DNA from: Nakamurella alba
GTDB lineage: Bacteria > Actinomycetota > Actinomycetes > Mycobacteriales > Nakamurellaceae
Length of the DNA stretch: 64,000 nt
NCBI RefSeq assembly: GCF_009707545.1
Contig: NZ_WLYK01000005.1
Span: 62,001 to 126,000 of the forward strand
Direction: 5' to 3'
Position 1 is the first letter of the stretch; each line of letters opens with the position of its first letter. The position numbers and the translations under genes are program-made. The notes under the pieces are model-generated. The model was not told where the DNA came from. It searched no databases and saw only the letters and a program-made list of their open reading frames with translations. This document shows, piece after piece, positions 3,728 through 57,752 of this stretch.

Positions 3728-3888
3728 GTTCCAGCTGGAACGCCTCCGATTGGTGATCCGGGACCGTTTCCCGCGTGTCAGACGGGAAACGGTCCCGGAT
3801 TGGCGGCGGGGGAACGTTCCAGCTGGAACATGCCGGTGCCAGACGGGAAACGGTCCCCGATCAGTGGCGTGGGCGTTCCAGCTGGAAC
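3728..3888. repeat. Three copies of the 14-bp palindrome GTTCCAGCTGGAAC with a 60-bp tandem unit
   Basis: Perfect copies are at 3728-3741, 3816-3829 and 3875-3888. The second and third are embedded in a tandem unit of about 60 bp. Each unit also carries CAGACGGGAAACGGTCCC, at 3779 and 3840, upstream of the palindrome. The first copy begins nine bases after the aldo/keto reductase stop codon. No coding potential is apparent. Confidence 0.9.
3756..3800 (+). terminator. 18-bp perfect stem hairpin, probable terminator of the aldo/keto reductase gene
   Basis: The arm at 3756-3773 (ATCCGGGACCGTTTCCCG) is the exact reverse complement of the arm at 3783-3800, with a nine-base loop between. It lies 38 bases after the reductase stop. 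No T-run follows, as is common for hairpin terminators in high-GC actinobacteria. Part of the right arm recurs at 3840-3861 in the next 60-bp repeat, so the hairpin may also have arisen from repeat duplication. Confidence 0.55.
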
Positions 3889-3924
3889 ATGCCCGGGTGG
3901 CCGGCCCGAGGGAGTTGGCTTCCC

Positions 3925-4269
3925 GGTCCCTTCAACGACACTGAGTGTGGTTGTAGGGACACCGATGGCGAGATCCGGTTGCAGGAACCGCTTCCCGGCC
4001 CCGCAGCCACATCCACCCGGCCGGCGAACTGCATCCGGCCCCGTCCTCCCATCTGCGCGCGTTCACCCGGCGCACCCACCGACGACCCACAGGATCTGCT
4101 GACTTCCCGGTCCCTTCAACGACACTCACTGTCGGCGAACGGACCAGGAATGCGGAACCGCCACCCATCCCTCCTCTTTGCGCAGTTCACCCGGCGCACC
4201 CACCGACGACCCACAGGATCTGCTGACTTCCCTTTCCCTTCAACGACACTCACTGTGGCTGAGGGGACC
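3925..4269. repeat. Cluster 1 of the 37-bp hairpin / ~183-bp composite intergenic repeat
   Basis: Three imperfect hairpins follow the pattern GGTCCCTTCAACGACACT then CACTGT-GCTGAA-GGACC: about 3925-3960 (divergent right arm), 4109-4145 and 4233-4269. The first interval is 184 bp, the second 124 bp. Each hairpin is preceded by a TGACTTCC-like tail. Before the second and third comes a shared block starting GTTCACCCGGCGCACCCACC, at about 4057 and 4183. A diverged version of the same unit is found at 57304-57708. No coding sequence is supported in this gap. Confidence 0.85.
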
Positions 4270-4325
4270 GCGAGTCCGGACCCGCCGCACTGCAACCGCT
4301 ACCCATCCGCCACCCGGGAATACCA

Positions 4326-4361
4326 CCGCCGCCGACGTTCCAGCTGGAACGTCGGCGGCGG
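4326..4361 (-). terminator. 36-bp perfect palindrome after the ABC permease gene
   Basis: A copy of GTTCCAGCTGGAAC at 4337-4350 is extended by 11 perfectly paired GC-rich bases on each side, giving uninterrupted dyad symmetry over 4326-4361. It begins 19 bases beyond the stop codon of the minus-strand permease gene, so it is well placed to terminate that operon. There is no U-tract. It is also the longest form of the dispersed palindrome in this window. Confidence 0.6.
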
Positions 4362-4380
4362 CGCGCACCCAGGGATCGAG

Positions 4381-5166
4381 CTACTTCACCTCGCGGCGCA
4401 TGCTGCGGACCACGCCGGCGGTGATGGGCAGCACGACCCAGAGCAGGACCGACACGACGGTCGGGCCGAGGTCGACCCACGGGTTGCCGGAGGAGAGCCG
4501 GTCGTAGGTCTGGAAGACGTTGAGCCACTTGGCGTTCTCGCCGAGCAGCTGGTCGGAGAGGATCAGCACCACGGTCGGCGCCATGAAGTAGGTGACGACC
4601 GCGACGGCGGTCTGCGCGACGAGGGCACCGAAGCCCAGCGCCATGGTCACCTGCAGCACGGTCAGGATCGCCATCGAGCGGAGACTGTCGCCGAAGCCGG
4701 TCATGTCGGCGGTCCCGCCGCTGATCATCGCGTCGATGTAGACGGCGGCGACGGCCAGCCCGATGACCACCACGAACACCGCCATCGCCAGCGCCACCGA
4801 CGCGACGAACTTCGCCAGCAGCACCCGGCCACGGCGCGGGCTGAGGGTGAAGGTGGTGAGCGCCGTGCGCTGGCTCCACTCGGAGGTGATGCCGAGCAGG
4901 CCGATGACCGGGATCAGCATCCCGGCGAACTGCATGACGCCGGAGAACCGCATCCAGGACGACGAGCCGTCGCGGACGACCAGCCAGCCGAGGATGCCGA
5001 TCACCAGCAGGAAGGTGACGCCGAGAACGGCGACGCCGCTGCGGGTGTCGACCATCTTGCGGAGCTCGACGGTGAGCAGGCGGGAGAAGCGCTGCGGGCG
5101 GACGGGGGCGTCCGGCAGCCGGTGCTGGGCGAGCGTGGTGCCCGGCGCGGGGGTGAGGGTGGTCAT
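4381..5166 (-). CDS. ABC-2 type transporter permease
   Basis: A 261-residue polytopic membrane protein with about six hydrophobic segments: near residues 40-60 (VAVLGVTFLLVIGILGWLVV), 75-95, 125-150, 170-200, 210-225 and 235-250. The amphipathic N-terminus FSRLLTVELRKMVDTRSG is typical of ABC-2 export permeases. It lies 37 bases downstream of its ATPase partner on the same strand, so the two should form one exporter. A GGAATTCCTTCCGGG stretch precedes ATG 5166. The substrate is unknown; a divergent sensor kinase and regulator suggest control by membrane or envelope signals. Confidence 0.9.
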   Translation of the reverse strand: MTTLTPAPGTTLAQHRLPDAPVRPQRFSRLLTVELRKMVDTRSGVAVLGVTFLLVIGILGWLVVRDGSSSWMRFSGVMQFAGMLIPVIGLLGITSEWSQRTALTTFTLSPRRGRVLLAKFVASVALAMAVFVVVIGLAVAAVYIDAMISGGTADMTGFGDSLRSMAILTVLQVTMALGFGALVAQTAVAVVTYFMAPTVVLILSDQLLGENAKWLNVFQTYDRLSSGNPWVDLGPTVVSVLLWVVLPITAGVVRSMRREVK

Positions 5167-5203
5167 GACGAGGAATTCCTTCCGGGAAGCGAGGGGGTCG
5201 GGA

Positions 5204-6097
5204 TCAGGCGGCGACGGGGACGGCGGCCTGGTCGCCGGTCAGGGTGAAGAACAGGTCCTCCAGCGCGGCCCGGCCCTCGCGGAGCTCCACGATCACCTGG
5301 CCGGACGCCAGTGCGACGCGGCCGACCTGCTCCGGTGAACCGTCGACGGCGAGGGTGCCGTCGGGCTGCGGGGTGGCGGTCAACCCGGCACCGGTGAGCG
5401 CGGCGAGCAGCCCGGCCGGTTCCAGCCCGCGGACGATCGCCCCCTGCCCGACGAGCAGCTCGTCGAGCGCACCCTGCGCCACGATCCGGCCGTGACCGAT
5501 CATCACCAGCCGGTCGACGGTGGCCTGCACCTCGCCGAGCAGGTGCGAGGACAGCAGCACCGTGCCGCCGCGGTCGGCGAAGTCGCGGAGCAGCCCGCGC
5601 ATCCAGCGGATGCCCTCGGGGTCCATGCCGTTGGCCGGTTCGTCCAGTACCAGCAGCGCCGGGTCGCCCATCAGCGCGGTGGCGATGCCGAGCCGCTGCC
5701 GCATGCCGAGCGAGTAGTTGCCGACCCGGCGCTTGCCGGCGCCGGACAGGCCGACCAGCTCCAGCATCTCGTCGGCCCGGGTCCGCGGCAGGTCCAGCAG
5801 GCTGGCGGCCACCTTCAGGGTCTCCCGGCCGGTGCGGCCCGGGTGCTGCGCGGCGGCGTCCAGCATGACGCCGACGGACCGCCCGGGATTGGGCAGCTCG
5901 GTGTAGTGCCGGCCGTCGATGGTCACCGTGCCGGAGGTCGGCGGGGTGAGCCCGGTCAGCATCCGCAGGGTGGTCGACTTGCCGGCGCCGTTCGGCCCGA
6001 GGAAGCCGGTGACGGTGCCCGGCCGGCACTCGAAGCTCACGTCGTCGACGGCGGTGTAGTTGCCGTAGCGCTTGGTCAGGTGGGTCGCTGTGATCAT
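5204..6097 (-). CDS. ABC transporter ATP-binding protein (ABC-2 export type)
   Basis: A 297-residue ATPase energising the permease downstream. Walker A is GPNGAGKST at residues 34-42, the signature region is YSLGMRQRLGIA near residue 135, Walker B is ALLVLDEPANGMDPEG, and the switch histidine is in LLSSHLLGEVQ. The C-terminal 80 residues form the regulatory extension common in drug and lantibiotic-type exporters. The start MITATHLTKRYGNYTAVDDVSF matches the family. It is transcribed divergently from a histidine kinase with a 143-bp gap that contains a 22-bp inverted repeat, which points to control by that two-component system. Confidence 0.93.
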   Translation of the reverse strand: MITATHLTKRYGNYTAVDDVSFECRPGTVTGFLGPNGAGKSTTLRMLTGLTPPTSGTVTIDGRHYTELPNPGRSVGVMLDAAAQHPGRTGRETLKVAASLLDLPRTRADEMLELVGLSGAGKRRVGNYSLGMRQRLGIATALMGDPALLVLDEPANGMDPEGIRWMRGLLRDFADRGGTVLLSSHLLGEVQATVDRLVMIGHGRIVAQGALDELLVGQGAIVRGLEPAGLLAALTGAGLTATPQPDGTLAVDGSPEQVGRVALASGQVIVELREGRAALEDLFFTLTGDQAAVPVAA

Positions 6098-6153
6098 GCC
6101 GAGGACTCTGCCGATCGACCCCGGGCCAGCACATCCGCCGCCGGTCGCCCTTG

Positions 6154-6175
6154 CCCTACGACGAAAGTCGTAGGG
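6154..6175. promoter_or_regulatory. Inverted repeat CCCTACGAC-GAAA-GTCGTAGGG, candidate operator
   Basis: Two perfect 9-bp arms are separated by GAAA in the gap between the divergent ABC and histidine kinase operons, 56 bases before the ATPase start and 65 before the kinase start. NarL/LuxR-type regulators bind such short dyads, so the response regulator encoded at 7434 is the natural candidate. The binding itself is inferred. Confidence 0.55.
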
Positions 6176-6228
6176 GTCACCCCCCGGGCAGCGACCTCCG
6201 GCCGATCGAACCGCCGCGGTCCCCGCCC

Positions 6229-6234
6229 TACGCT
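6229..6234 (+). promoter_or_regulatory. Candidate -10 hexamer of a leaderless promoter (histidine kinase)
   Basis: TACGCT lies six bases before ATG 6241, with no ribosome binding site in between. This matches the spacing seen at 2696, 11323 and 60859. Confidence 0.4.
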
Positions 6235-6240
6235 GGTCGG

Positions 6241-7452
6241 ATGGACGACGCCCGGACCCGCTGGTGGGTCCGCGCCTGGTCGAAGGTCAGCGGACCCCGC
6301 GGCCGCGACATCTTCGTCGTCACCGTCTCCGCGATCTCCACCCTGCTGCAGACGCTGGCCCTGCTCGACATCGGGCGGCTCGGCGGCGGCTGGGCGATGG
6401 CGGCGGTGATCCTCACCAGCAATGCGATCGCGACCGTCGCCCTCTGGTGGCGGCGCCGGTTCCCGCTGTTGGTGACCTCGGTCGCCGCGGCCACCGCCCT
6501 GCTGGGCACCGCGTTCGTCCCGCTCGGACTGGGTCTGATGACGATCGCGGTGCAGCGGCGGGACCGGGTGCTCGTCGTCTACTCGGCGATCGCCGCGCTG
6601 GCCTTCTCCACGGACGGGCTGTGGCGCAGCGGTTGGCAGCCGCAGCAGCTGGTCGGCGGGGCGGTCGCGGCCACCATGTGCGCGCTGTTCGGCGCCTATG
6701 TCGGTGTCCGGCGGGACCTGCTCGCCTCGCTGCGGGAGCGGGCCGACCGGGCCGAGCGGGAGCGGGAGCTGCGGGCCGAGCAGGCCCGGGTCTCCGAGCG
6801 GGCCCGGATCGCCCGGGAGATGCACGACGTGCTGGCGCACAAGGTCTCGCTGATCGCACTGCAGGCCGGTGCCCTCGAGGTGAACCCGGACCGGCCACCG
6901 GAGAAGATCGAGGAGACGGCCGGGCTGATCCGGTCCACCGCCCGGGCGACGCTGGAGGACCTTCGCGGCGTGCTGGGTGTGCTCCGGTCGGACGCCGACT
7001 CCGACGCCCCGCTCGCCCCGCAGCCGGGCATTGCCGACCTCGAGCAGCTGGTCGGCCAGTCCCGCGCGGCCGGGGTCCAGGTGGACCTCGAACTCGGGCT
7101 CGATCCTGCGGAGCTGACGGTCTCGGACACGCTGGGCCGCACGGTCTACCGGGTGGTCCAGGAGGCGCTGACCAACGTGCACAAGCACGCCCGCGGTGCC
7201 CGTACGCGCGTGGTGGTCACCCTCGACGGCGACCGGATCCGCATCGAGGTGACCAACGCCCGGCCGGTGGCGTCCGGCAGCCTGCTTCCAGGGTCCGGTG
7301 CCGGGCTCACCGGGCTCCGCGAGCGGGTGGAACTGGCCGGCGGCACCCTGGACGCCGGGCCGGCGGGGAACGGTGGCTGGCGGGTCACGGCGCTGCTGCC
7401 CGTTCCGGCCGCCGACCGTGCCACCATCAGCGGGTGGCCGTCCGCATCCTGA
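6241..7452 (+). CDS. Sensor histidine kinase, HisKA_3 (DesK/LiaS) type
   Basis: A 403-residue membrane sensor kinase. Four to five hydrophobic segments lie in residues 20-160, then a short coiled region rich in Arg and Glu. The dimerisation domain has the phospho-accepting His195 in AREMHDVLAHKVS. The ATPase domain has the N box ALTNVHKHARG and the G box GAGLTGLRERVELAGG. There is no large extracellular sensor, so it probably senses within the membrane, as DesK and LiaS types do. ATG 6241 was chosen because a -10-like box sits six bases upstream and earlier in-frame codons are unconserved. Its end overlaps the response regulator gene by 19 bases, and an ABC exporter is divergent. Confidence 0.9.
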   Translation: MDDARTRWWVRAWSKVSGPRGRDIFVVTVSAISTLLQTLALLDIGRLGGGWAMAAVILTSNAIATVALWWRRRFPLLVTSVAAATALLGTAFVPLGLGLMTIAVQRRDRVLVVYSAIAALAFSTDGLWRSGWQPQQLVGGAVAATMCALFGAYVGVRRDLLASLRERADRAERERELRAEQARVSERARIAREMHDVLAHKVSLIALQAGALEVNPDRPPEKIEETAGLIRSTARATLEDLRGVLGVLRSDADSDAPLAPQPGIADLEQLVGQSRAAGVQVDLELGLDPAELTVSDTLGRTVYRVVQEALTNVHKHARGARTRVVVTLDGDRIRIEVTNARPVASGSLLPGSGAGLTGLRERVELAGGTLDAGPAGNGGWRVTALLPVPAADRATISGWPSAS

Positions 7453-8093
7453 TCGTCGACGACGACGCCCTGGTCCGTGCCGGCCTGACGATGATCGTCG
7501 AGTCCGCCGACGACCTCGAGGTGGTCGCCGAGGTCGGCGACGGTGCGGATGCCGTCGGCGCCGTGCAGGCGCACCGTCCCGACCTGGTGCTGATGGACAT
7601 CCGGATGCCGCGGATGGACGGGCTGGCCGCCACCGCCGCGGTGCGGGCCCTGCCGGATCCGCCGAAGGTCATCGTGCTGACCACCTTCGACCTCGACGAC
7701 TACGTGTTCCGCGCACTGCAGGCCGGCGCCGCCGGGTTCCTGCTCAAGGACACCCCGCCGAAGGACCTGATCGCCGGGATCCGGGTGGTCGCCGCCGGCG
7801 AGGCCATGCTCTCCCCCGGTGTCACCCGCACCCTGATCCAGCACTTCGCCGACGACTCCCGGTCCGACCGGCAGCACGCCGCCGCCGCCCGACTGACCGG
7901 CCTCACCGACCGCGAGACCGAGGTGCTGGTGCAGCTCGGCCACGGGATGTCGAACGCCGAGATCGGGCGCACCCTGTTCATGTCCGAGGCCACGGTGAAG
8001 ACGCACGTGTCCCGGCTGCTGGACAAGGTGCAGGCCGGCAACCGGGTGCAGCTGGCGATCGTCGCGCACGAGGCCGGGCTGCTGGAGAAGTAG
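7434..8093 (+). CDS. NarL/FixJ-type response regulator
   Basis: A 219-residue DNA-binding regulator partnered with the kinase upstream. The receiver domain (MAVRILIVDDDALVRAGL) has the phospho-acceptor Asp55 in VLMDIRMPRMDG, Thr in VLTTFDLDDY, and Lys in FLLKDTPP. The C-terminal LuxR helix-turn-helix is LTDRETEVLVQLGHGMSNAEIGRTLFMSEATVKTHVSRLL. I chose GTG 7434 because it begins directly at the first receiver strand and gives the overlap usual for translational coupling. It likely controls the divergent ABC exporter through the dyad at 6154-6175. Confidence 0.93.
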   Translation: MAVRILIVDDDALVRAGLTMIVESADDLEVVAEVGDGADAVGAVQAHRPDLVLMDIRMPRMDGLAATAAVRALPDPPKVIVLTTFDLDDYVFRALQAGAAGFLLKDTPPKDLIAGIRVVAAGEAMLSPGVTRTLIQHFADDSRSDRQHAAAARLTGLTDRETEVLVQLGHGMSNAEIGRTLFMSEATVKTHVSRLLDKVQAGNRVQLAIVAHEAGLLEK

Positions 8094-8138
8094 GACGGCG
8101 GTCTGCACAGGATCGCCGCCCACCGCGTTGGAGGTGAT

Positions 8139-8645
8139 GTGCCGGAGTTCGAGCAGTTCGTCGCGGAGCGGGGCCACGGGTGGCAGCGTTACGCCCGCGC
8201 GCTCACCGGCAACGACGTCGCCGCCCAGGACCTGGTGCAGTCCGTGCTGCTCAAGGCCTACCGGCAGTGGCGGCGGATCACCGCGATGGAGTTCCCGGAC
8301 GCCTACGTCCGGCGGATGCTGACCAGCACCTTCCTGGACGGCAAGCGGCGGCGCAGCGACTCCGAAGTGCTGCTGGCCGAGCTTCCCGAACCGGGTCCGG
8401 CTGCGCCCGATCCGGCGATCCGGGTGACCGACCGCGATTCGCTGCGCCGGGCACTGGCCACGCTCAGCGACCGGCAGCGCGCGGTCGTCGTCCTCCGCTA
8501 CCTCGAGGACCTGCCGGATGCCGAGATCGCCGCCGAGCTCGGCTGTTCCGAGGCGACCGTCCGCAGTCACGCCGCCCAGGGCCGGGCCCGTTTCCGGGAC
8601 GCGCTGCTGGCTCTCGACCACGACCGCACCGAGGAGTCCCTGTGA
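8139..8645 (+). CDS. SigE-family ECF RNA polymerase sigma factor
   Basis: A 168-residue alternative sigma factor. Region 2 is at residues 8-70 (RYARALTGNDVAAQDLVQSVLLKAYRQW) and region 4 at about 110-160 (LSDRQRAVVVLRYLEDLPDAEIAAELGCSEATVRSHAAQGRARF). The short form with this region 4 matches actinobacterial SigE-family sigma factors. The start codon is GTG 8139, preceded by GGAGGTGAT. The last four bases overlap the start of a membrane protein gene (GTGA), so the two are translationally coupled. That partner is the likely modulator of the sigma factor. A second pair of the same layout is at 12963-15123. Confidence 0.92.
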   Translation: MPEFEQFVAERGHGWQRYARALTGNDVAAQDLVQSVLLKAYRQWRRITAMEFPDAYVRRMLTSTFLDGKRRRSDSEVLLAELPEPGPAAPDPAIRVTDRDSLRRALATLSDRQRAVVVLRYLEDLPDAEIAAELGCSEATVRSHAAQGRARFRDALLALDHDRTEESL

Positions 8646-9304
8646 GTCCTGTGAACGACGACGAGATCGACCGGCTGCTCCGCACCGCGGTGCTGGATGC
8701 GGCCGATGCGGAATCGCCTGTCCCCCGGCCGGTGTCGCTGCTGCCTGTGGTCGACGGCGGGCGGCCGGCGGGTAGGCGACGGCGGGCCTGGTGGCTCGCG
8801 CCACTGGGCGTGGCCGCCGCGGTGGCCCTGGCCGTCGGCATCACCATGCTGGTCCGGCCGGCCTCGGCACCGGTCGGCACCTCGGAGCCGCTGTCGGCCT
8901 GCGCGCCGGTGCCGTCCCGGGTTCTTCCCGAGTGGGCCCGCGGCGGGTTCTCCGATCCGGAACCCGAGATGCCCTACGTGCTCGGCGATGCCGGCAACAT
9001 AGTGGCCATCCTCTTCGTCGACCCGATGATCGCGCCGACCCCGGACGGATCCGGGAACAAGATCCTCTGGGTCCCGCACACCGGCGCGACACCCGGTGCG
9101 GACCTGCGCATCACCGGCACCCTGGAGGGGGCGGTCGCCGGGTCGGCCGGATCGACGATGTCCGCCGTGGTCGCCGGCGGCCCGGGACCGTCAGGGATCG
9201 AGGCGCCGCGAGCCGGATGCTGGCTGCTGCAACTCGCCTGGGGCGACACCACCGACTCCATGGCGCTGCGTTGGTACCCGCCGGACACCCCGGCGAGCCG
9301 CTGA
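8642..9304 (+). CDS. Single-pass membrane protein coupled to SigE-type sigma factor (putative anti-sigma or sensor)
   Basis: A 220-residue protein: a charged cytoplasmic N-terminus (MSPVNDDEIDRLLRTAVLDAADAE), one transmembrane helix at about residues 50-72 (WWLAPLGVAAAVALAVGITMLV), then an exported domain. The exported part ends in a segment with PSGIEAPRAGCWLLQLAWG. A GCW motif followed by alternating hydrophobic residues occurs in uncharacterised actinobacterial exported domains. The gene overlaps the sigma factor by four bases. By layout it could hold the sigma factor at the membrane, but there is no zinc-binding HxxxCxxC motif, so the anti-sigma role is an inference from position. Confidence 0.7.
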   Translation: MSPVNDDEIDRLLRTAVLDAADAESPVPRPVSLLPVVDGGRPAGRRRRAWWLAPLGVAAAVALAVGITMLVRPASAPVGTSEPLSACAPVPSRVLPEWARGGFSDPEPEMPYVLGDAGNIVAILFVDPMIAPTPDGSGNKILWVPHTGATPGADLRITGTLEGAVAGSAGSTMSAVVAGGPGPSGIEAPRAGCWLLQLAWGDTTDSMALRWYPPDTPASR

Positions 9305-9309
9305 AACGG

Positions 9310-9678: not shown

Positions 9679-9709
9679 GTTCCCTCCTCCTGACGTGTGA
9701 TCGCTGGGG

Positions 9710-11328: not shown

Positions 11329-11334
11329 CGGGTC

Positions 11335-12318
11335 ATGGCGATCCGGGAGGTGCTGCGCGAGCGGGCGCACGCACTCGCGCACGACCTCCTCTTCCCCTCC
11401 GCAGCCGCCGTCGACGCTGCCGACCGCCTCCCGGACGAGCACTGGTCGGCCCTGGCCGGGGCCGGTCTGCTGGCCCTGGCCGCGGATTCCGACGACCTTG
11501 GTCCGGAGTCGTTCGCACTCGCCGGCGACGTACTGGCGAGCCTGGCCGGCGGCTGCCTGTCGACCGGGTTCCTGTGGATCCAGCACGAGGGCACGGCGAT
11601 GGCGGTGGCCCGGTCATCGTTACGGGATCGGTACCTGCCGGGGCTCGTCGACGGCTCGGTGCGGTCCGGGATCGCGCTCGGCGGCCTGCGTCCCGGTCCG
11701 GACCAACTGCGCGTTCGCGCGGTCGACGGTGGGTTCGTGCTCGACGGCTCGGTGCCCTGGGTGTCCGGCTGGGGCATGCTCGACGTTCTGCAGGTCGCGG
11801 CGGTGTGCGGGGACGAGGTCGTCTTCCTGCTCATCGACGCGGTCCCGTCGGACGGGCTGACAGGCACGCTGTTGTCGTTGGTCGCGGCGCAGGCCTCCCG
11901 GACGGTGACCCTGCACTGTGCCGGGCTGTTCGTCCCGGGCGATCGTGAACTGGCCCGGATGCCGCTGGACGACTGGAACGAGATGCAGCGCTGGGGGTCG
12001 CCGCTCAACGGGTTCCTGGCGCTGGGTGTGGCCGGGCGCTGCGCGCTGCTGCTGGGTGATGAGGCCGGGGACCTGCCCGACGCGATCGTCCGAACCCGAG
12101 CCGACCTGCTCGCCGCCGACCCGCCCGCGGTCCCGGCCGCCCGGGCCGCGGCCTCGGTGCTGGCCGACCGGGCAGCGGCGAGGTTGGCAGTGCGCACCGG
12201 TGCGGCGTCGGTGCTCCGCGGGTCCGACGCCGAGCGCCTGCGGCGGGAAGCCGGGTTCCTCCTGGTCTTCGCCTCCCGCCCCCTCATCCGCGCCGAGACA
12301 ATGGACCGACTGGGCTGA
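11335..12318 (+). CDS. Acyl-CoA dehydrogenase family protein, short form
   Basis: A 327-residue flavoprotein homologue. The N-terminal helical domain (REVLRERAHALAHDL, then DEHWSALAGAGLLAL) and the middle beta-domain (GSVPWVSGWGMLDVLQVAAV, VVFLLIDA) follow the acyl-CoA dehydrogenase plan. The C-terminal domain is reduced and lacks the usual QxxGGxGY-type segment, and the protein is about 50 residues shorter than typical family members. It may therefore act as a monooxygenase-like or divergent dehydrogenase. It stands alone, with a GTTCCAGCTGGAAC palindrome eight bases after its stop. Function on a specific acyl substrate is not supported. Confidence 0.75.
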   Translation: MAIREVLRERAHALAHDLLFPSAAAVDAADRLPDEHWSALAGAGLLALAADSDDLGPESFALAGDVLASLAGGCLSTGFLWIQHEGTAMAVARSSLRDRYLPGLVDGSVRSGIALGGLRPGPDQLRVRAVDGGFVLDGSVPWVSGWGMLDVLQVAAVCGDEVVFLLIDAVPSDGLTGTLLSLVAAQASRTVTLHCAGLFVPGDRELARMPLDDWNEMQRWGSPLNGFLALGVAGRCALLLGDEAGDLPDAIVRTRADLLAADPPAVPAARAAASVLADRAAARLAVRTGAASVLRGSDAERLRREAGFLLVFASRPLIRAETMDRLG

Positions 12319-12326
12319 GGTCGGGC

Positions 12327-12853
12327 GTTCCAGCTGGAACGCGCCGGGACGGTTCGACGTCGGGGTCGGGTGGCGGGGGTCGAGGCGTTCCAGTTGGAAC
12401 ATCCGGACCGGTCCCCATCGATCTGTTGCCACCAGCCTCGCCCGGCGTGGCCCACCGCACCGGATCGGAATCTGGACGGTGGTCGGAGCAGTGCTGGGCG
12501 TTCCAGCTGCAACATCCCGACCGGTCCCCATCGATCCGTTGCCACCAGCCTCGCCCGACGTGGCCCACCGCACCGGATCTGGATCGAAACAGTCTCCGGA
12601 GCCGGGGCAACTGATACGGACGTACCAGCTGGAACATCCGGAGGGTTCCTGACCCTGGCGAGGCGGTAGGCGCCGGGCTCACGACGTTCCAGCTGGAACA
12701 TCCGGACGGGCCCATCCGATCCGTTGCCACCAGCCTCGCCCGACGTGGTGCACCGCACCGGATCGGAATCTGGACTGTGGTCGGAGCAGTGCTGGACGTT
12801 CCAGCTGGAACGTCGCGGGGAGATCTCTGACCCTGCGGCGTTCCAGCTGGAAC
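12327..12853. repeat. Palindrome cluster with about 112-bp mosaic modules
   Basis: Seven palindromes lie in a 640-bp gap: perfect GTTCCAGCTGGAAC at 12327, 12686, 12798 and 12840, and one-base variants at 12387 (GTTCCAGTTGGAAC), 12500 (GTTCCAGCTGCAAC) and 12622 (GTACCAGCTGGAAC). Between 12387-12513 and again 12686-12811, two palindromes bound near-identical spacers that contain GTTGCCACCAGCCTCGCCCG and end GGTCGGAGCAGTGCTGG. A partial third copy of the spacer starts at about 12514. The modules look like mosaic, REP/BIME-type elements. I find no gene in this gap apart from the sigma factor start at 12963. Confidence 0.9.
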
Positions 12854-12962: not shown

Positions 12963-13487
12963 GTGGACGATCTCGCCGGCCTGGTCGACCGGCACGGGCT
13001 GATGCTGCTGCGCGTCGCCTACCAACTGACCGGCGACCGCGACTCCGCCCAGGACCTGGTGCAGGAGGTGCTGCTCAGCATGATCACCCGCACCCGTACG
13101 GGCATCTCGAATCCTGCGGGCTACCTGCGCCGGGCCGTGGTCAACGCCCACATCGACCGGCACCGCTTGCGGTCGAGCAGTGAGGTGCTGCTCGCCGAGC
13201 CGGAGGCCGATGGCGGCACCGCAGCCCCTGCGGCCGCCACGGGCGGAGATGAGTTCGCCGACACGGTGGCCGATCGCGACCGGCTCTGGCGCGCGCTCGG
13301 CACCCTCGATCCGCGCAGCCGCACCGTGCTGGTGCTGCGCCACTACCTGGATCTGCCCGACGACGAGATCGCCCAGACCCTCGGCTGCAGTCGGAGCACC
13401 GTGCGCAGCATCGCCGCCAGGGCGATCCACAAGCTCCGATCAACTGCCGCGACCGAACCGGAGGAGGCCGACCGTGGACGAGCCTGA
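12963..13487 (+). CDS. SigE-family ECF RNA polymerase sigma factor
   Basis: A 174-residue alternative sigma factor. Region 2 is LRVAYQLTGDRDSAQDLVQEVLLSMI and region 4 is LDPRSRTVLVLRHYLDLPDDEIAQTLGCSRSTVRSIAARAIHKL. It begins at GTG 12963 behind GGGAGGG. Its last 14 bases overlap the start of a 549-residue membrane-anchored protein. The arrangement repeats the pair at 8139-9304, although the two sigma factors differ clearly in sequence. Its targets are unknown. Confidence 0.9.
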   Translation: MDDLAGLVDRHGLMLLRVAYQLTGDRDSAQDLVQEVLLSMITRTRTGISNPAGYLRRAVVNAHIDRHRLRSSSEVLLAEPEADGGTAAPAAATGGDEFADTVADRDRLWRALGTLDPRSRTVLVLRHYLDLPDDEIAQTLGCSRSTVRSIAARAIHKLRSTAATEPEEADRGRA

Positions 13488-20164: not shown

Positions 20165-20178
20165 GATCCAGTTGGAAC
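20165..20178. repeat. Variant 14-bp palindrome after the NUDIX gene
   Basis: GATCCAGTTGGAAC differs at two positions from the family consensus. It lies 11 bases beyond the minus-strand NUDIX stop codon, a position like that seen at five other genes. The remainder of the 200-bp gap to the monooxygenase start shows nothing distinct. Confidence 0.6.
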
Positions 20179-20189: not shown

Positions 20190-20660
20190 CTACGGCGTAC
20201 CGAGCAGTGCAGCCAGCCGCTCGAGGAAAGGACGCTGCCCGGCCAGGATCTTGACCGCGGCGGCATCCAGGTCGAACCACTCGGCGCGGTCGACCTCGGG
20301 CACCCGGATGGTCCGTCCCGAGCGGGGCGGCCATTCGAGCTCGATCTCGTTCGACACCACCGTCGCCGGGTCCAGGTCTGCCTCCCGTGCCCAGCACAGC
20401 ACCGTCTTGGCCGACGACTGGCGGACGCTGCCGAGGTCCAGGTCGGGACCGACCCCGTCGGGCAGGGACCCCGTCTCCTCGGCGAACTCGCGCAGTGCCG
20501 CGGCGTGCGGCTCCTCCTCGCCCGGCACGAACTCGCCCTTCGGCACCGACCAGGCGCCATCGTCCTTGCGCGCCCAGAACGGCCCGCCGGGATGGGCCAG
20601 CAACACCTCGACCTTTCCTGCACCGCGCCGGAACAGCAGCAGTCCCGCGCTCGTCCTCAT
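20190..20660 (-). CDS. NUDIX hydrolase
   Basis: A 156-residue single-domain hydrolase. The Nudix box is GEFVPGEEEPHAAALREFAEETG (shown in part: GX5EX7REFAEETG), with the helix REFAEETG providing the metal-binding glutamates. N-terminal strands SAGLLLFRRGAGKVEVLLAHPGGPFWARKD are typical of small Nudix phosphohydrolases with DUF4916/YjhB-like features. It probably hydrolyses a nucleoside diphosphate derivative. Its ATG overlaps the CDF transporter stop (ATGA), so it is the third gene of an emfourin-CDF-NUDIX unit. Confidence 0.9.
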   Translation of the reverse strand: MRTSAGLLLFRRGAGKVEVLLAHPGGPFWARKDDGAWSVPKGEFVPGEEEPHAAALREFAEETGSLPDGVGPDLDLGSVRQSSAKTVLCWAREADLDPATVVSNEIELEWPPRSGRTIRVPEVDRAEWFDLDAAAVKILAGQRPFLERLAALLGTP

Positions 20661-22148: not shown

Positions 22149-22168
22149 GACGTTCCAGCTGGAACGTC
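22149..22168. repeat. 20-bp perfect palindrome containing GTTCCAGCTGGAAC
   Basis: The 14-bp palindrome at 22152-22165 is extended to GACGTTCCAGCTGGAACGTC at 22149-22168. It lies between divergent genes, 45 bases before the emfourin start and 53 before the LLM oxidoreductase start. Here it cannot act as a simple 3' element, so an operator or barrier role is possible. Confidence 0.75.
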
Positions 22169-34155: not shown

Positions 34156-34169
34156 GTTCCCGCTGGAAC
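34156..34169. repeat. Variant 14-bp palindrome after the ECF42 sigma gene
   Basis: GTTCCCGCTGGAAC differs by one base from the family consensus. It starts three bases after the minus-strand sigma factor stop codon and before the RluA-type gene. Confidence 0.65.
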
Positions 34170-34172: not shown

Positions 34173-35318
34173 TCATCCCCCCGTCGGCTGCCGGAGCCGG
34201 GCGGCCTGTCGGGTCAGGTGATCCCGCTCCGCGGCATTCCCGGCGACCCGCGCGGCATCCGCGTAGAGCTGCGCTGCGGCAACGGCGTCGCCGGCCTTCT
34301 CGTGCAGGTGTGCCGACACCGCAGCGAACCTCGGCAGCCCGGGATCGATCTCGCCCAGCGCCGCCAACCCAGCCCGGCCGCCGTCGGCCTCGCCCACCGC
34401 CACCGCGCGGTTGAGCCGCGCCACCGGATTGTCGGTGAGCCGCACGAGTTCGTCGTACCAGCCGACGATCTGCACCCAGTCGGTCTCGCCCACGCTGCGC
34501 GCATCGGCGTGCAGCGCCGCGATCGCGGCCTGCGCCTGGTATTCCTCCAGCCGGTCCCGGGACAGCGCCGCCTGCAGGATCTCCACGCCCTCGGCGATCA
34601 GCGAGGTGTTCCAGCGGGAACGGTCCTGCTCGGCCAGCGGGATCAGCCGGCCGTCGGCACCGAACCGCGCGGGGCGGCGGGCCTGGTGCAGCAGCATCAG
34701 CGCGAGCAGCCCCGCCACCTCCTCGTCGTCGGTCAGGCCGGCCAGCTGCCGGGTGAGCCGGATCGCCTCGAGGGTCAGATCGACGTCCCCGGAGTAGCCC
34801 TCGTTGAAGACGAGGTAGAGCACCTTCAGCACGGTGGAGAAGTCGCCCGGGCGGTCCCACCGCACCTCCGCCACCGCCCGCTTCGCCCGGCTGATCCGTT
34901 GCGCCATCGTCGCTTCCGGCACCAGGTACGCCGCGGCGATCTGCCGTGTCGTCAGCCCGCCGACCGCCCGCAGGGTGAGCGCGAGCGCCGACGCCGGCGA
35001 GAGCGACGGGTGCGCACAGAGGAAGTACAGCCGCAGCGTGTCGTCGGCCTGTTCGGTCGGACCGGGTGCGGGTTCGAGGTCCAGCTTCTCCTCGCGCCCG
35101 CGTCGCGCCACATCCGAACGAACCGCGTCGAGGTACTTCCGCCACGCCGTGGTCACCAGCCAGCCCTTGGGATCAGCAGGCAGATCGGACACGCCGGCCT
35201 GCCAGGCCTTGAGCAGCGCCTCCTGCACGGCGTCCTCGGCCGACGCGAAGTCCGCGCCGCGCCGGACGAGGACGCCGATCACCTGCGGGGCCAGCTCCCG
35301 GACCAGCTGCGGATCCAT
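34173..35318 (-). CDS. ECF42-type RNA polymerase sigma factor with C-terminal TPR-like extension
   Basis: A 381-residue sigma factor. Region 2 is DFASAEDAVQEALLKAWQAG and region 4 is LTTRQIAAAYLVPEATMAQRISRAKRAV. A C-terminal extension of about 200 residues (DUF6596/TPR-like) holds VLYLVFNEGYSGD, RLNRAVAVGEADGGRAGL and the ALSRDRLEEYQAQAAIAALHA helix. Published work on group ECF42 shows such sigma factors need the extension for activity and are linked to DGPF proteins, with no anti-sigma factor. A DGPF/YCII gene lies 28 bases upstream here, which fits. GGGAGG precedes ATG 35318. Confidence 0.9.
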   Translation of the reverse strand: MDPQLVRELAPQVIGVLVRRGADFASAEDAVQEALLKAWQAGVSDLPADPKGWLVTTAWRKYLDAVRSDVARRGREEKLDLEPAPGPTEQADDTLRLYFLCAHPSLSPASALALTLRAVGGLTTRQIAAAYLVPEATMAQRISRAKRAVAEVRWDRPGDFSTVLKVLYLVFNEGYSGDVDLTLEAIRLTRQLAGLTDDEEVAGLLALMLLHQARRPARFGADGRLIPLAEQDRSRWNTSLIAEGVEILQAALSRDRLEEYQAQAAIAALHADARSVGETDWVQIVGWYDELVRLTDNPVARLNRAVAVGEADGGRAGLAALGEIDPGLPRFAAVSAHLHEKAGDAVAAAQLYADAARVAGNAAERDHLTRQAARLRQPTGG

Positions 35319-35346
35319 CGGCGCCGTACCTCCCGGTTGCACCCGG

Positions 35347-35754
35347 TCAGTCGGTGACGGTCGGCGGGTGCGCCAGGAAGGGCCGGACCTCCAGCCACTC
35401 GTGCAGCGGCTTCCCACCCCGACCCGGCGCGGCGGACAGCTCGCCGGCCAGTTCCAGTGCCCGGTCGTAGGACTCGACGTCGATGACCATCCACCCGGCG
35501 ATCAGGTCCTTGGTCTCGGCGAACGGGCCGTCGGTCACCGGCGGCCGGCCCTCGCCGTCGTAGCGGACGAAGGTGCCCTCGGGGGACAGCGCCTGCCCGT
35601 CGACGAACTCGCCTGTGCCCTCCAGCCGCACCGCGAAGTCCTGCATGTACTGGATGTGCGCGTCGATCTCGGCCGGCGTCCAGCGGTCCATCGGCACGTC
35701 GTCGCCGACCGGGGCCGGGTTGCCGCGGTAGTGCTTCAGCAGGAGGTACTTCAT
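35347..35754 (-). CDS. YCII/DGPF-domain protein
   Basis: A 135-residue protein with the DGPF signature in TDGPFAETKDLIAGWMVIDV. It begins MKYLLLKHYRGN, and the middle has PEGTFVRYDGEGRPP. YCII-related proteins have a ferredoxin-like fold; their reaction is not known. This type is often encoded next to ECF42 sigma factors, as here, with a 28-bp gap to the sigma gene at 34173. The ATG 35754 is preceded by GGACACCACC, a weak site. It is probably the target or partner of that sigma factor. A paralogue is at 60430. Confidence 0.9.
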   Translation of the reverse strand: MKYLLLKHYRGNPAPVGDDVPMDRWTPAEIDAHIQYMQDFAVRLEGTGEFVDGQALSPEGTFVRYDGEGRPPVTDGPFAETKDLIAGWMVIDVESYDRALELAGELSAAPGRGGKPLHEWLEVRPFLAHPPTVTD

Positions 35755-50661: not shown

Positions 50662-50775
50662 CGTCCGGAAGCATTCCACCTTCGCCGGGGCCGTGGGGGA
50701 CGGATGTCCGGGACGTCCGGTTCTGTGCCGGATTTCCTCCGTTGGGGCGATCCGCCCGGGACGGGCTCGCCGGGA

Positions 50776-52581: not shown

Positions 52582-52788
52582 GCATTCAGACTAATGCCGA
52601 TCGCCTCCGCCATCATGATCGAGTTCGACGCAATGCATGCGTCTGATCACTCTCGGTGTTCGTCGCGCGAACGCTGTCGAGCCGAAGGGTGGGTGCGACC
52701 GGCGGGGGGACGTGCCCGTCCGCTCAGGATCTTCCGGGCGGTCCGTGCGGTCGGGACGCGACGGTCAGGATTCCCCCGAACGAGCGCG

Positions 52789-54885
52789 TCACAGAGCGGC
52801 CAGCACCTTGTCGAGCCGCACGGGCAGGTCTCGGATCCGCACGCCCACCGCGTCGTGGACGGCGGCGGTGACCGCGGCCGCGGTCCCGACGATGCCGATC
52901 TCCCCGATGCCCTTGGAGCCCATCGGGTTCAGGTGGTCGTCCTGTTCGTCGAGCCAGTGGACGTCGATGTCACCGATGTCGGCATTGGCGGCGATGTGGT
53001 AGTCCGCGAAGTTGTCGTTGACAGTGTCGCCGAACGCCGGATCCCACCGACCCTCCTCCAGCAGTGCCATCGACAGACCCATCGTCATCCCGCCGATCAA
53101 CTGCGACCGGGCCAGCCGCGGGTTGACCACCCGGCCGACGGCGAACGTGCCCAGGGCCCGCGGCACCCGGACCTCACCGGTGATCGTGTTGACCCGCGCT
53201 TCGACGAACTGTGCACCGTAGGCGAACCGGGCCAGCGCGGGTTGTGCCGAGAGCTCGTCGGTGGTGTCGGCCTCCGCCGACAGACCGTCGAACGGCACGG
53301 CGCCGCCGACTGCCGTCAGCCGGTCGCACAACTGCTCGCTCGCGCGCGTCACCGCCCGACCCCAGGAGGCAGTGCCGGACGAGCCCCCGGCGCCCGACGC
53401 CTGCGGCAGGGCGCTGGACCCGACGTGCATCCGAACCCGGTCGATCGGGACCTGCAGGGCATCGGCGGCGATCTGGCGCAGCACGGTGCGCGCACCCGTG
53501 CCGATGTCGGCGGCGGCGATCTCCACGTCGAAGGTGCCATCGGCACGGGCGGTCGCCCGCGCCGAGCTCGGCTGCTGGTAGGCCGGGTAGGTGGAACCGG
53601 CGACTCCGCGGCCGACCCGCCACGGACCGGTCCCCTGCGGCCTCGGCCGGGACCAGCCGAACAGCCGCGCGCCCTCCCGGAGGCACTCGACGTAGTGCCG
53701 ACTCGAGAACCGCAGCCCGCTGTCCGGGTCGGTCTCCGGCTCGTTGGCGATCCGCAGCTCGACCGGGTCCAGGCCGAGCTGCTCGGCCAGCTCGTCCATC
53801 GCCGCTTCGACCGCGAACATTCCCGGCGCCTCCCCGGGTGCGCGCAACCAGCGCGGGGTGGGCACATCGAGGCGTGACAGCCGGTGTGTGACCCGCCGGG
53901 CCGGCGCCGCATACATGTGCCGGGTGGATTCACCGGTCTGCTCGGCGAAGTCCAGCAGCCGCGAGCTCTGTTCGACCGTTTCGTGCACGATCGCGGTCAG
54001 CCGACCTGCGGCCGTGGCACCGAGGCGGACCCGTTGGATCGTCGGCGTGCGGTAGCCGACCAGATGAAAGGTCATCTCGCGGGTCAGTGTGACGGTGACC
54101 GGCCGATCGACCAGCCGGGCGGCGAGCAGGGCAAGGATCACGTTGGGCCGGGTCGTCCCCTTTGAACCGAACCCACCGCCGACGTGCTCCGAGTGCACGG
54201 TCACCGCCCCGGCTCCCAGCCCGAACGCCTGTGCCGCGGTCCGGCTCACCTCGGAGCTGTTCTGCGTCGAGTCGTACACCGTGGCCTGGTCCGCAGCGTC
54301 CCATCGGGCGGTGGTCGCGTGCGGTTCCATCGGAACGTTGTGCAGGTGCGGCGTCCGGTACTCCTGGTCGACGACCACGTCCGCCCGGGTCAGCCCGGCC
54401 TCGACATCGCCGGACTCGGTGTCGGTCGGGAAGCCCGCATTGAGCTCGTCCGGGACCACGAGATCCGGGTCATGGGCGGACAGCTGGACGTGGAACGGCT
54501 CGACGTCGTAGTCGATGCGCAGGGCCGCGGCTCCGGCCCGGGCGGCTTCCAGGGTCCGTCCGATCACCACCGCCACGGGACGACCGTGGTACTGCACCCG
54601 GTCGTCCTGCAGCACCATCAACTCGGCGTCGTCCACCTCGGTCAGCCGGTGTGCGTTGCCGTGCCACAGCACGTCGATCACCCCGGGGACGGCGGCGGCG
54701 GTCGCGGTGTCGACTTCGGTGATCCGGCCGCGGGCGACCGTCGACCCGACGATCCAGCCGTGGCAGGCCTCGTCGCGGACGAATTCCGCCGCGTACCGGG
54801 CTGCTCCGACGACCTTGTCACGGCCCTCCACCCGTTCGTACGCCGATCCCACAGCGTGCGGGCGACGCAGCTCGGCGCGTGTCAT
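52789..54885 (-). CDS. paoC: Molybdopterin-binding subunit of a PaoABC-like aldehyde/xanthine dehydrogenase
   Basis: A 698-residue catalytic subunit of the xanthine dehydrogenase family. It starts with [30 protein letters not shown]. Moco-binding motifs are [33 protein letters not shown] and SSGTASWG. The active-site Glu is in [15 protein letters not shown] near residue 650. The closest described complex is E. coli PaoABC (YagTSR), which oxidises aromatic aldehydes. No signal peptide is present. Its ATG overlaps the FAD subunit stop (ATGA). Substrate assignment is by family only. Confidence 0.9.
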
Positions 54886-55868
54886 CGGGCACCCCCGGCG
54901 AGTCCGCCCAAGGTGTCGGCCACCAGCCGGACGGTCAATGGCACCTTGAACGCGTTGTCCGGCAGCGGGTCCGCAGCGGCGAACTCGGCATTCAGGGCGT
55001 CGACGACCGAGTCGGTCGTCGGCGCGGTACCCCGCAGCACCGCCTCCGCGGTCCGCGCCCGCCACGGGCGCGGTGCCACGCCGCCGAGCGCGATGCGCAG
55101 GTCCACGGCCGTGGGGCCGTCCCAGCGGACCAGGACCGCGGTCGAGACCACCGCGAACGCGTAGGACGCCCGGTCGCGCACCTTCCGGTAGGTGGACCGG
55201 GTGCCGTCCACCAGCGGCGGGAGGTGGATGCCGGTCACCACTTCCCCGGCCCGCAGCGTGGTCTCCACCTGCGGGGTGTCACCGGGCAGCAGATACAGCT
55301 CCTCCAACGACAACCGGCGCCGGCCGGCCGGGCCCTGCACGTCCACCTCGGCATCGAGCGCCGCCAGCGCCACGGCCATGTCCGAGGGGTGGGTGGCGAT
55401 GCAGGAGGTCGAGGTGCCGAGCACGCCGAGCATGCGGTGCTCGCCGTTGCGGGCCGGGCAGCCCGATCCCGGGTCCCGCTTGTTGCAGGGTTTGCCGACG
55501 TCCATGAAGTACCCGCACCTGGTGCGCTGCAGCAGATTCCCGCCTGTCGTGGCCATGTTGCGCAGCTGGCCCGATGCCCCCGCCAGCAGTGCCTCTGCCA
55601 AGGCGGGGTAGTACCGACGGACCACCGGGTCGGCGGCCAGGTCGCTGTTCCGGACCATGGCGCCGACGTCCACCCCGCCGTGATCGTCCCGCACCACCCC
55701 GGTCAACGGCAGGTGCGAGACATCGACGACGATGTCGGGCTCCTCCGCTCCCAACTTCATCAGATCGACCAGATTGGTGCCGCCACCCAGCAGGCGCGCC
55801 CCCGACCGGCCGGCCAGCGCGACCGCCTGCTCCAGGTCGGTGGGACGTTCGTAGGTGAAGGTCCTCAT
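54882..55868 (-). CDS. paoB: FAD-binding subunit with extra iron-sulfur Cys motif (PaoB-like)
   Basis: A 328-residue subunit carrying electrons between the molybdenum and iron-sulfur subunits. It begins [20 protein letters not shown], followed by the FAD loop [17 protein letters not shown] and [21 protein letters not shown]. Cysteines in [15 protein letters not shown] and [10 protein letters not shown] match the additional [4Fe-4S] cluster known in E. coli PaoB. The C-terminal domain holds [31 protein letters not shown]. Four-base overlaps link it to both neighbours, so the three subunits are translated together. Confidence 0.9.
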
Positions 55869-56521
55869 CGGTTCGCCCCGTCCATCTGCGCCGGGACCCC
55901 CGGCGACGGCTCGGCGGGCGGGGCGGGCTCGGCGCCACCGGCCGAACGGTCCATGGCGGCCATCACCGCCGGCACGATGTGCGCGTACGCCCCGCACCGA
56001 CACAGGTTTCCGCTCATCCGCTCCCGGATCTCGGCGGCCTCCCACCGGGGTTCCGCGGCGACGTCCGGGGTGACCGCGCTCGGCCGGCCCTCGGCCAGCT
56101 CGGCCAACGCACCGACCGCCGAGCAGATCTGACCGGGTGTGCAGTAGCCGCACTGGAATGCGTCGTGGTCCAGGAACGCCTGCTGCACCGGGTGCAGGCG
56201 GTCACCGTCGGCCAACCCCTCCACCGTCGTCACCTCGCTGCCGGCGGCGCTCGCCGCCAGCAACAGGCAGCTGTTCACCCGGCGGCCGTCGACCAGGACT
56301 GTGCATGCGCCGCACTGCCCGCGGTCGCACCCCTTCTTCGACCCGGTCAGATCCAGGCGCTCACGCAGGGCATCCAGCAGCGTGGTCCGCGGGTCGAGGG
56401 TCAACTCGTGCCGGGTGCCGTTGATGGTCAGCACGGTGTGCACGCCACGATCGGGACCCGGGCGGGTCATCCGCCGTGAGTCGCTGTCGGCGGGGGCGGT
56501 GCCGTGCGGGTGTGGACTCAT
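55865..56521 (-). CDS. paoA: [2Fe-2S] subunit of PaoABC-like dehydrogenase
   Basis: A 218-residue electron-transfer subunit. A plant-type ferredoxin domain has the cluster motif [21 protein letters not shown] (in two parts, near residues 64-84). The C-terminal helical domain binds the second cluster with [11 protein letters not shown] and GNLCRCGAY. The first 30 residues are polar and carry no Tat signal, unlike E. coli PaoA, so the complex is probably cytoplasmic. ATG 56521 was chosen; an ATG 17 codons downstream is possible. It is the first gene of the operon. The PaoD/XdhC-type maturation factor is not in the window. Confidence 0.9.
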
Positions 56522-56582
56522 GCCGTGGCGATCCCCGACACCCGCCGCCGGCAAACGGAAGGCTGCCCTTGCCCGGTCCGGG

Positions 56583-57158
56583 TCAGGCCTTGGCGGCGTC
56601 CTCCTCGTCGGCGTTGCGGCCCTCGTCGGGCTCGCGCTCCTTGCGGCGGAGCAGCCAGGCGGTGAGGCCCAGTACCAGGACCAGCGCCCCCAGGATCGCG
56701 ATCTCGCGCATGGAGTCGGAGAACTCCGCCCCCTTGCCGACGTCCTCCGCCGCCTTCACCGACAGCACCACGATCTCCTTGATCGAGGCGATGATGCCGA
56801 CGATCAGGAACGGTTCGGCGATGAGTTCACGGCGGGCGATGGTCGTCCGGACGGCGTAGAGCAACTCGACCACGATGAAGATGAGCAGCAGCAGATCGAG
56901 CACCGCGACCGCCGCGTTGCCGTTGGCGGCGTCGCCGGCGAACATGCTGCCGGTCTCCCGGACGGCCGCAACCAGCAGCGACACCGCCGTGACCACCAGC
57001 AGGATCGCGATGCCGATGTAGACGGCCGTCTCCGCCCACTCCAGGATCCGGTTGCCGATCCGGATGTGCGCCGGCGCCTCCGCCTCGTCGCCCTCCCCAC
57101 CCTCGTTGCGCGGCCAGGTGCCACCTCTTCCGGGTCGGCGACGGTTCCGGTCGGTCAT
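56583..57158 (-). CDS. PsiE-like phosphate-starvation-inducible family membrane protein
   Basis: A 191-residue membrane protein with an N-terminal polar segment of 45 residues, four hydrophobic helices (AVYIGIAILLVVTAVSLLVAAV, AAVAVLDLLLLIFIVVELLYAV, FLIVGIIASIKEIVVLSVKAA, EIAILGALVLVLGLTAWLL) and a charged tail. The pattern VELLYAVRTTIARRE...EPFLIVGIIASIKEIVV matches the PsiE family. Function is not known. ATG 57158 follows a weak purine stretch. It is 61 bases downstream of the paoA start on the same strand but upstream in orientation to nothing else. A palindrome at 57228 lies 69 bases upstream. Confidence 0.82.
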   Translation of the reverse strand: MTDRNRRRPGRGGTWPRNEGGEGDEAEAPAHIRIGNRILEWAETAVYIGIAILLVVTAVSLLVAAVRETGSMFAGDAANGNAAVAVLDLLLLIFIVVELLYAVRTTIARRELIAEPFLIVGIIASIKEIVVLSVKAAEDVGKGAEFSDSMREIAILGALVLVLGLTAWLLRRKEREPDEGRNADEEDAAKA

Positions 57159-57227
57159 CTCCGCATCCTGCACGAGCACGCCGGTTCCCGCCGGGGTCGC
57201 GACCCACGCCCGGGTCCTGGTTCCCAC

Positions 57228-57241
57228 GTTCCAGCTGGAAC
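57228..57241. repeat. GTTCCAGCTGGAAC palindrome upstream of the PsiE-like gene
   Basis: A perfect copy of the dispersed palindrome, extended by one base on each side to 16 bp. It lies upstream of the minus-strand PsiE-like gene and at the edge of the second composite repeat cluster. Confidence 0.85.
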
Positions 57242-57303
57242 GCGTGTCGGCGATCCGTGAGGGGTCGGCCGCCCGGGCCCGTCCCGACCGGACTCGACTT
57301 CCC

Positions 57304-57708
57304 GGTCCCCTCAACCACACTCTCACTGTCGCTGAAAGGACCGTGAAGAGTGGCACCTTCCCTTCGGCGCCTTCCCTGGCCCGTCGGCCACATCCGCCCG
57401 GCCGCCGAACCCGCCACGACTCCGAACCTCGTCCGGGGCGCAGTTCACCCCGACCGGCCACCCACGAACCGCAAGGTCCCGACTTCCGGGTCCCTTCAGC
57501 CACACTCACTGTCGCTGAAAGGACCGTGAAGAGTGGCACCTCCCTTTCGGCGCCTTCCCTGGCCCGTCGGCCACATCCGCCCGGCCGCCGAACCCGCCAC
57601 GACTCCGAACCTCGTCCGGGGCGCAGTTCACCCCGACCGGCCACCCACGAACCGCAAGGTCCCGACTTCCGGGTCCCCTCAGCCACACTCACTGTCACTG
57701 AAGGGACC
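57304..57708. repeat. Cluster 2 of the 37-bp hairpin / 183-bp composite repeat
   Basis: Two nearly identical tandem units of 183 bp occupy 57323-57505 and 57506-57688. Hairpins of the type GGTCCCTTCAGCCACACT then CACTGTCGCTGAAAGGACC lie at 57304-57342, 57489-57525 and 57672-57708. Inside each unit are CGGCCACATCCGCCCGGCCG and GGGGCGCAGTTCACCCCGAC, which match diverged copies at 4010-4060 and 4180-4200. The units are open in more than one frame but show no start, ribosome binding site or family match, so I regard them as non-coding. Confidence 0.9.
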
Positions 57709-57738
57709 GCAACGACAGGCACCGACACCCCGCCCCAC

Positions 57739-57752
57739 GTTCCAGCTGGAAC
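57739..57752. repeat. GTTCCAGCTGGAAC palindrome after the lipase-like gene
   Basis: A perfect copy with flanking C and G (57738-57753), ten bases after the stop of the minus-strand lipase-like gene. Its position suggests a 3'-end element. Confidence 0.85.

Follow-up and report, generated by a model that had tools for sequence, protein, structure and literature searches.

A species-private 20-bp palindrome clustered near gene 3' ends in Nakamurella alba: a candidate site for a dimeric DNA-binding protein

The stretch of DNA analysed here (the window) comprises 64 kb of the Nakamurella alba genome, namely positions 62001–126000 of contig C5 in an assembly of 6,051,944 bases in 29 contigs (C1, C3, C5 and so forth), and it contains a 14-bp palindrome, GTTCCAGCTGGAAC, that recurs between its genes. 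The palindrome was recovered at all 16 window positions named in the original prediction, as 11 exact copies, four with one mismatch and one with two. A search allowing up to three mismatches drew in 22 matches in the window, as against 2.26 expected from 100 shuffles (shuffle maximum of 6). Genes were called with our own codon-usage script, which places stops more reliably than starts, the latter being uncertain; by these calls none of the 16 listed copies lies inside a gene, as had been claimed, with the copy at 57228 abutting the start called for a PsiE-like gene, a start that is itself uncertain. A further one-mismatch copy absent from the earlier list, at 34608 (GTTCCAGCGGGAAC), falls within a called gene (34173–35318).

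Near the left end of the window, exact copies at 3728..3741, 3816..3829 and 3875..3888 share a convergent intergenic region, the first of them lying 10 bp 3' of the stop of an aldo/keto reductase gene (2708–3718, + strand). A 36-bp perfect palindrome at 4326..4361 encloses another exact core (4337–4350); the gene at 4381–5166 (- strand) has its stop 31 bp away from this core, or about 20 bp if measured from the extended form. Seven of the 16 listed copies (12327–12840) occupy a single intergenic region that is partly made of 111-nt repeats, and hence the 16 copies are not independent events. This region holds an exact copy at 12327..12340, 9 bp 3' of the stop of an acyl-CoA dehydrogenase-like gene (11335–12318, +), and an array upstream of an extracytoplasmic function (ECF)-type sigma gene (12963–13487, +), with one-mismatch copies at 12387..12400, 12500..12513 and 12622..12635 and exact copies at 12686..12699, at 12798..12811 (inside a 20-bp perfect form, GACGTTCCAGCTGGAACGTC, at 12795–12814) and at 12840..12853, 110 bp 5' of where the sigma gene is called to start. 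The two-mismatch copy (20165..20178) is 12 bp from the stop of a Nudix gene (20190–20606, -), and an exact copy at 22152..22165 lies between divergent Emfourin-like and luciferase-like genes. A one-mismatch copy with a CGCT loop (34156..34169) is 4 bp from the stop of a sigma/DUF6596 gene (34173–35318, -). Two exact copies flank a repeat array near the right end of the window: the left edge is formed by 57228..57241, which lies 5' of the PsiE-like gene, while the right edge, 57739..57752, is separated by 11 bp from the stop codon at which the gene 57763–60252 (-) ends. The distances given here bear out the claim that the palindrome lies just after six stop codons (3718, 4381, 12318, 20190, 34173 and 57763). 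The window segments 34173–35754 and 60430–62540 contain two sigma-factor genes with DUF6596, each accompanied by a YCII-domain gene.

Across the whole genome we detected 17 exact copies of the 14-mer and none of a reversed control, so that a count close to chance, which would have spoken against the family, was not seen. Fourteen of these lie in a 67-kb segment, C5:52609–119752, with one on C7 and two on C13. When the genome was treated as one line, none of 20,000 random placements put 14 of 17 copies within 67 kb, and none did so for six of eight once all copies in an intergenic region were counted as one. The 20 intergenic copies between 52 and 120 kb of C5 deviate from the core at only 7 of 280 positions. 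With up to two mismatches there were 94 matches genome-wide versus 75 for the control, indicating that loose matches are mostly background. The more general motif GTTCC-N4-GGAAC is found at 51 places in this genome, versus 2 for its reversed control; its loop is AGCT in 17 of the 51, and AGCG or the reverse, CGCT, in another 17. This AGCG-loop sister form (GTTCCAGCGGGAAC) is spread over seven contigs, for example C1, C3, C5, C6 and C8 (on C5 at 14734, 54122 and 96156), with 12 copies intergenic and 5 within genes.

All 17 exact copies are intergenic, and the frequent occurrence in coding sequence that would have counted against the family was thus not found for the exact form. On a 166-kb stretch of C5, 9 of the 86 intergenic regions of at least 30 bp contain intergenic copies, be they of one loop form or the other, a count that includes one copy with two mismatches. 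In seven of the nine, a copy lies no more than 35 bp from a stop codon, the nearest copies being 2–31 bp away, whereas random placement in the same regions gives an expectation of 2.57 (p 0.0012). The suspected bias to 3' ends is therefore real, although not absolute. Convergent regions make up three of the nine, as against 8 of 86 overall (hypergeometric p 0.035, length-weighted p 0.11). In two convergent regions, C5:53816–54136 and C5:65719–66380, both genes have their own copy near their own stop, and one of the two stop-proximal copies in the former is of the AGCG form.

A conservation profile was derived from 64 half-sites of 32 intergenic copies of both forms, with the copy at 82165 (C5 numbering) and three mismatched C13 copies excluded. 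The conserved unit that emerged is a 20-bp sequence, GRCGTTCC-MGCK-GGAACGYC, in which conservation stops three bases beyond the 14-mer: the first position outside it (+1, G) has 0.90 bits, +2 (pyrimidine) 1.07 and +3 (C) 0.55, and positions +4 to +45 have 0.11 bits or less. The AGCG form shares this preference, with 20, 22 and 20 of 24 half-sites agreeing at +1 to +3. In the exact copies all 34 half-sites have a pyrimidine at +2 (20 T, 14 C), and the choice between T and C is independent in the two halves, which are alike in 9 of 17 copies versus 8.3 expected. Pairing between the left and right flanks of the exact form is likewise at the level of chance (51 of 102 positions versus 48.4 by shuffling, p 0.30), also when the 36-bp site is left out (45 of 96 versus 44.4, p 0.49). 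An uninterrupted stem of 5–9 bp is seen in 16 of the 17 exact copies, the 36-bp form being the exception. The exact-form flanks thus lack stem-like covariation, which favours a DNA site read by a dimeric protein.

The original prediction had proposed a comparison with related genomes, and the palindrome proved to be nearly absent from its congeners. The 14-mer is missing from 15 of 16 congeners and is present as a single copy in the remaining one (G011); any copy at all was found in 4 of 121 genomes searched, this genome included. With up to one mismatch allowed, 23 copies of the 20-bp form were counted in this genome; of 395 further genomes drawn from the phylum, a set that includes no congener, 12 contain it, with a maximum of two copies each. 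The general motif occurs at 3–17 places in each of the 16 congeners, for a sum of 169 versus 44 for the reversed control. In eight congeners, the closest counterparts of one enzyme are 71–74% identical. Two viral contigs each hold the 20-mer at one place, and a phage origin was considered. Two copies spaced 28–58 bases apart were found in a contig database in one Acidobacteria metagenome-assembled genome only, although records of this genome itself may be excluded there. The 14-mer string had no match in the one paper collection searched. As far as these searches extend, the palindromic site is private to the species, and we regard the feature as real, private and unusual.

Two other repeats accompany the palindrome. 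The first of these (element 2) consists of units with an imperfect hairpin core, ACACTSASTGT, and is found at window positions 3916..4286 with palindromes on both sides, at 57295..57710 as an array of ~183-nt units between the palindromes at 57228 and 57739, and at C5:53922–54064. Three regions of C5 (53.8–54.1, 65.7–66.4 and 119.2–119.8 kb) have element 2 units of ~120–185 nt in common, with palindromes located at the edges of the arrays, and in a genome search matches with zero or one mismatch were confined to these palindrome-bearing regions; elsewhere there were four matches, all with two mismatches, versus one for the control. A 40-nt stretch of C7 that is ~80% alike to element 2 is possibly a distant relative. 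The repeat units around some copies are ~69–94% alike, while the palindrome cores hardly vary. The second repeat (element 3) is a hairpin, CCGGGACCGTTTCC...GGAAACGGTCCCGG, at 3756..3800 between the palindromes at 3728 and 3816; the stretch 3750–3805 folds at -41.9 kcal/mol (z -7.4). Its 14-base arm is found at 14 places in this genome (C1, C3, C5, C8, C11 and C13), several of them between convergent genes and two inside called genes, and at none in the 16 congeners. We also noted minisatellite-like intergenic arrays at C13:24.3–24.7 kb and C7:44.9–45.2 kb, with offsets of ~93 and 72 nt respectively; mapping of C7 and C13 onto congener stretches revealed no synteny. Some congeners carry their own intergenic repeats, such as GCGCGTCGAGATCCCG units in G014 and CTCTGGCAATGCTC...GAGCATTGCCAGAG in G005, within the 40 kb inspected.

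The explanation that we tentatively favour, at a little below an even chance, is that the palindrome is a species-private, 20-bp protein-binding site on DNA with a placement like that of repetitive extragenic palindromic (REP) elements. The sharp boundary at +3, the independent halves and the near-invariant core form the pattern expected of a dimer on double-stranded DNA. A putative symmetric, sequence-specific protein, probably dimeric, would bind each site as double-stranded DNA and, once bound, would act on the DNA or on elongating RNA polymerase, be it as a roadblock, by insulation or through local chromosome organisation. Such action appears more plausible than action at promoters, since most copy-bearing regions have the site just after a stop and three of nine are convergent. 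Among the three roles that had been suggested for the palindrome, namely terminator, stabiliser of mRNA and protein-binding barrier, the barrier fits best; the first two suit the exact form poorly, given its short stems, chance pairing and conservation ending at three bases, and given that five of nine strongest downstream hairpins do not include the palindrome.

Several observations weigh against this explanation. Near-absence from the congeners means that no phylogenetic footprint supports a binding site. The 3'-end rule is broken at 22152 and by the C13 cluster, which sit between divergent genes. REPs, too, are mostly located 3' of genes, and some are confined to one species (PMC3733652). 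The DNA-site case rests on the exact form, since pairing above chance is seen in the flanks of the 12 intergenic AGCG copies (43 of 72 versus 33.6 expected, p 0.003) and, when the two forms are pooled, in their 36 intergenic copies (114 of 216 versus 99.1, p 0.007). In the AGCG form the halves also tend to match at +2 (8 of 12 versus 5.0 expected, p 0.057), and extended stems are present both in this form and in the copy at 4337. Given that the two forms share the same flank preference, separating them was our own choice. It should also be noted that the flank tests on 17 sites, some of which are kin through tandem duplication, have modest power.

The main rival, which we consider possible though doubtful, is that the palindrome is a passive REP-like dispersed repeat with no function or an incidental one, its copies having arisen by local duplication, by recombination or through an undefined transposase. 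Like REPs of the GTAG and CGTC superfamilies, the window palindromes are extragenic, lie mainly 3' of genes and occur in mosaics, in this case with two other private repeats; three of the intergenic regions have long homologous units in common and one is made of 111-nt repeats. These local mosaics with other hairpin repeats recall bacterial interspersed mosaic elements (BIMEs) or the Neisseria mosaics. Spread by the copying of long segments applies to the element 2 regions as well as to the 111-nt array, but it does not fit the copies as a pool. REPs are reported to lie mostly downstream of genes and, in some cases, to be species-specific (PMC3733652, PMC12306157). They are described from gaps between genes that converge or run in one direction, where some form mosaics with other repeats, and clustered REPs and mosaic blocks are known (PMC3733652). 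Placement and privacy alone therefore do not separate our palindrome from REPs, which can share both; what sets it apart is the flank statistics of the exact copies.

Unlike REPs, the family has only 17 exact copies and a perfect 14-bp core without a tag, it has 14 of those copies in 67 kb, and the flanks of its exact form pair at chance. As to the paired hairpin of 20–40 bp that characterises REPs, the picture is mixed: the palindrome measures 20 bp, and its flanks pair at chance in the exact form but above chance in the AGCG form and when both forms are pooled. Neither a GTAG nor a CGTC tag was found at the palindrome ends, where no base is conserved beyond +3, and nothing is common beyond 20 bp across the 32 pooled copies; change within the unit is position-specific, with +2 free and the core nearly fixed. 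A PF01797 profile search of the genome for the REP-associated tyrosine (Y1) transposase (RAYT) gave no match at an E-value of 0.001, while a control search was positive in 5 of 14 named genomes. Nor was there a convincing target-site duplication: of 30 combinations tried, three lay more than 1.5 above the null (p 0.15, 0.04 and 0.02), which we took as no signal. A REP mobilised by RAYT was ruled out because the search recovered no Y1 transposase, a tag is lacking and the copies are few.

A second rival, which we regard as improbable, holds that the palindrome functions as a stem-loop in RNA where genes end, either as a terminator or as a hairpin that stabilises mRNA. The proximity of copies to stops in seven of nine C5 regions is consistent with it, as are the above-chance flank pairing of the AGCG copies and of both forms pooled and the fold of the 36-bp form (-36.7 kcal/mol, z -6.7). 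That the extended forms support structure, as had been argued, holds in so far as the 36-bp palindrome at 4326–4361 is real and the AGCG form does show stem extension; among exact copies, however, that palindrome is the exception, and six folds of five other copies have z from -0.98 to -2.43. The strongest hairpin within 150 bp downstream had a median of -30.1 at copy-bearing stops (n=9), no stronger than the -29.0 at other stops (n=47), and at five of the nine copy-bearing stops the palindrome lay outside it. Rfam covariance models gave no match at the gathering score in the window. A general 3'-end element such as a terminator would, moreover, not be predicted to place 14 of 17 copies in one region. 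As for the intrinsic terminators of high-GC bacteria, both the AGCG form and the copy of 36 bp resemble bidirectional stem-loops near stops. In 3 of the 12 intergenic AGCG copies the stem runs unbroken for 18, 14 and 10 bp, and with several long stems near stops this form is terminator-like. The exact form differs from such terminators in having no extended stem in 16 of 17 copies, and the stem compensation seen in the AGCG form is not apparent in it (p 0.30).

An ordinary operator of a transcription factor is quite unlikely. The two-fold symmetric shape of the 20-bp unit, with its tolerated positions, would suit one, and seven copies lie upstream of the ECF-type sigma gene, with some others between divergent genes. 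However, in most copy-bearing regions on C5 a site is located at a 3' end, convergent genes flank three of the nine, and there is no second conserved box within 45 bp; this last point also counts against a -35 element of ECF sigma factors (GGAAC), which was ruled out because nothing is conserved from +4 to +45. The genes flanking the copies are functionally mixed and have no common theme, which argues against an operator regulon. An operator for a themed set of genes was rejected on the same grounds; a few copies do lie upstream of genes.

Least probable, and very unlikely in our view, is a role in organising the chromosome, in which the palindrome would delimit a local domain in the manner of parS or matS: it is short, exact, intergenic and regionally clustered, with 10 of 14 bases as in parS (GTTTCACGTGAAAC), and half-changed parS sites with GTTCCA exist in the genus, but the species' own parS cluster lies 230–300 kb away beside parAB with other flanks, a single ParB_N protein was found in the genome, and other genomes lack the palindromic site. 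An intergenic scan for 5-4-5 palindromes (4-base loops only), covering stretches here and in G002, G005, G013 and G014, found outside this family only parS comparably repeated (four copies in G013), and this was the only comparable repeated palindrome that the scan detected in a congener. The genus parS clusters (C5:338001–358000, and C6 of G013 at ~297.6–299.6 kb) include half-changed sites, GTTTCACGTGGAAC and GTTCCACGTGAAAC.

Set beside known systems, palindromes after genes are usually classed as REPs or terminators, and the present family is neither parS nor a RAYT-mobilised REP. From parS, which is read as DNA by a dimer, it differs in having GC instead of CG at its centre and GRC/GYC as flanks, and in its distance from parAB: the genuine parS cluster is at C5:350366–355312, next to parB (C5:348254–349405), and the palindrome cluster is at C5:52609–119752. 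Four of its 14 bases differ from those of parS, and an identity as parS or as part of a second ParB system was rejected. The binding sites of MatP (matS) and of Noc are domain-restricted palindromic sites for nucleoid-associated proteins, and their sequences differ from that of the window palindrome. The flank statistics seem to separate the readings from sequence alone, with the exact form behaving as a DNA site and the AGCG form as a stem-loop; if true, other "REP-like" families could be tested in the same simple way, and this would be one genome in which to seek a possible protein-based marker of gene ends or domains with a single 20-bp bait. In its most specific form, which we offer as little more than speculation, the protein-binding explanation would have a species-private DNA-binding protein mark gene 3' ends in one chromosomal neighbourhood, stopping or insulating convergent transcription as a roadblock. 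It would then be a bacterial counterpart, limited to one domain, of the eukaryotic site-specific terminator proteins such as Reb1 and TTF-I.

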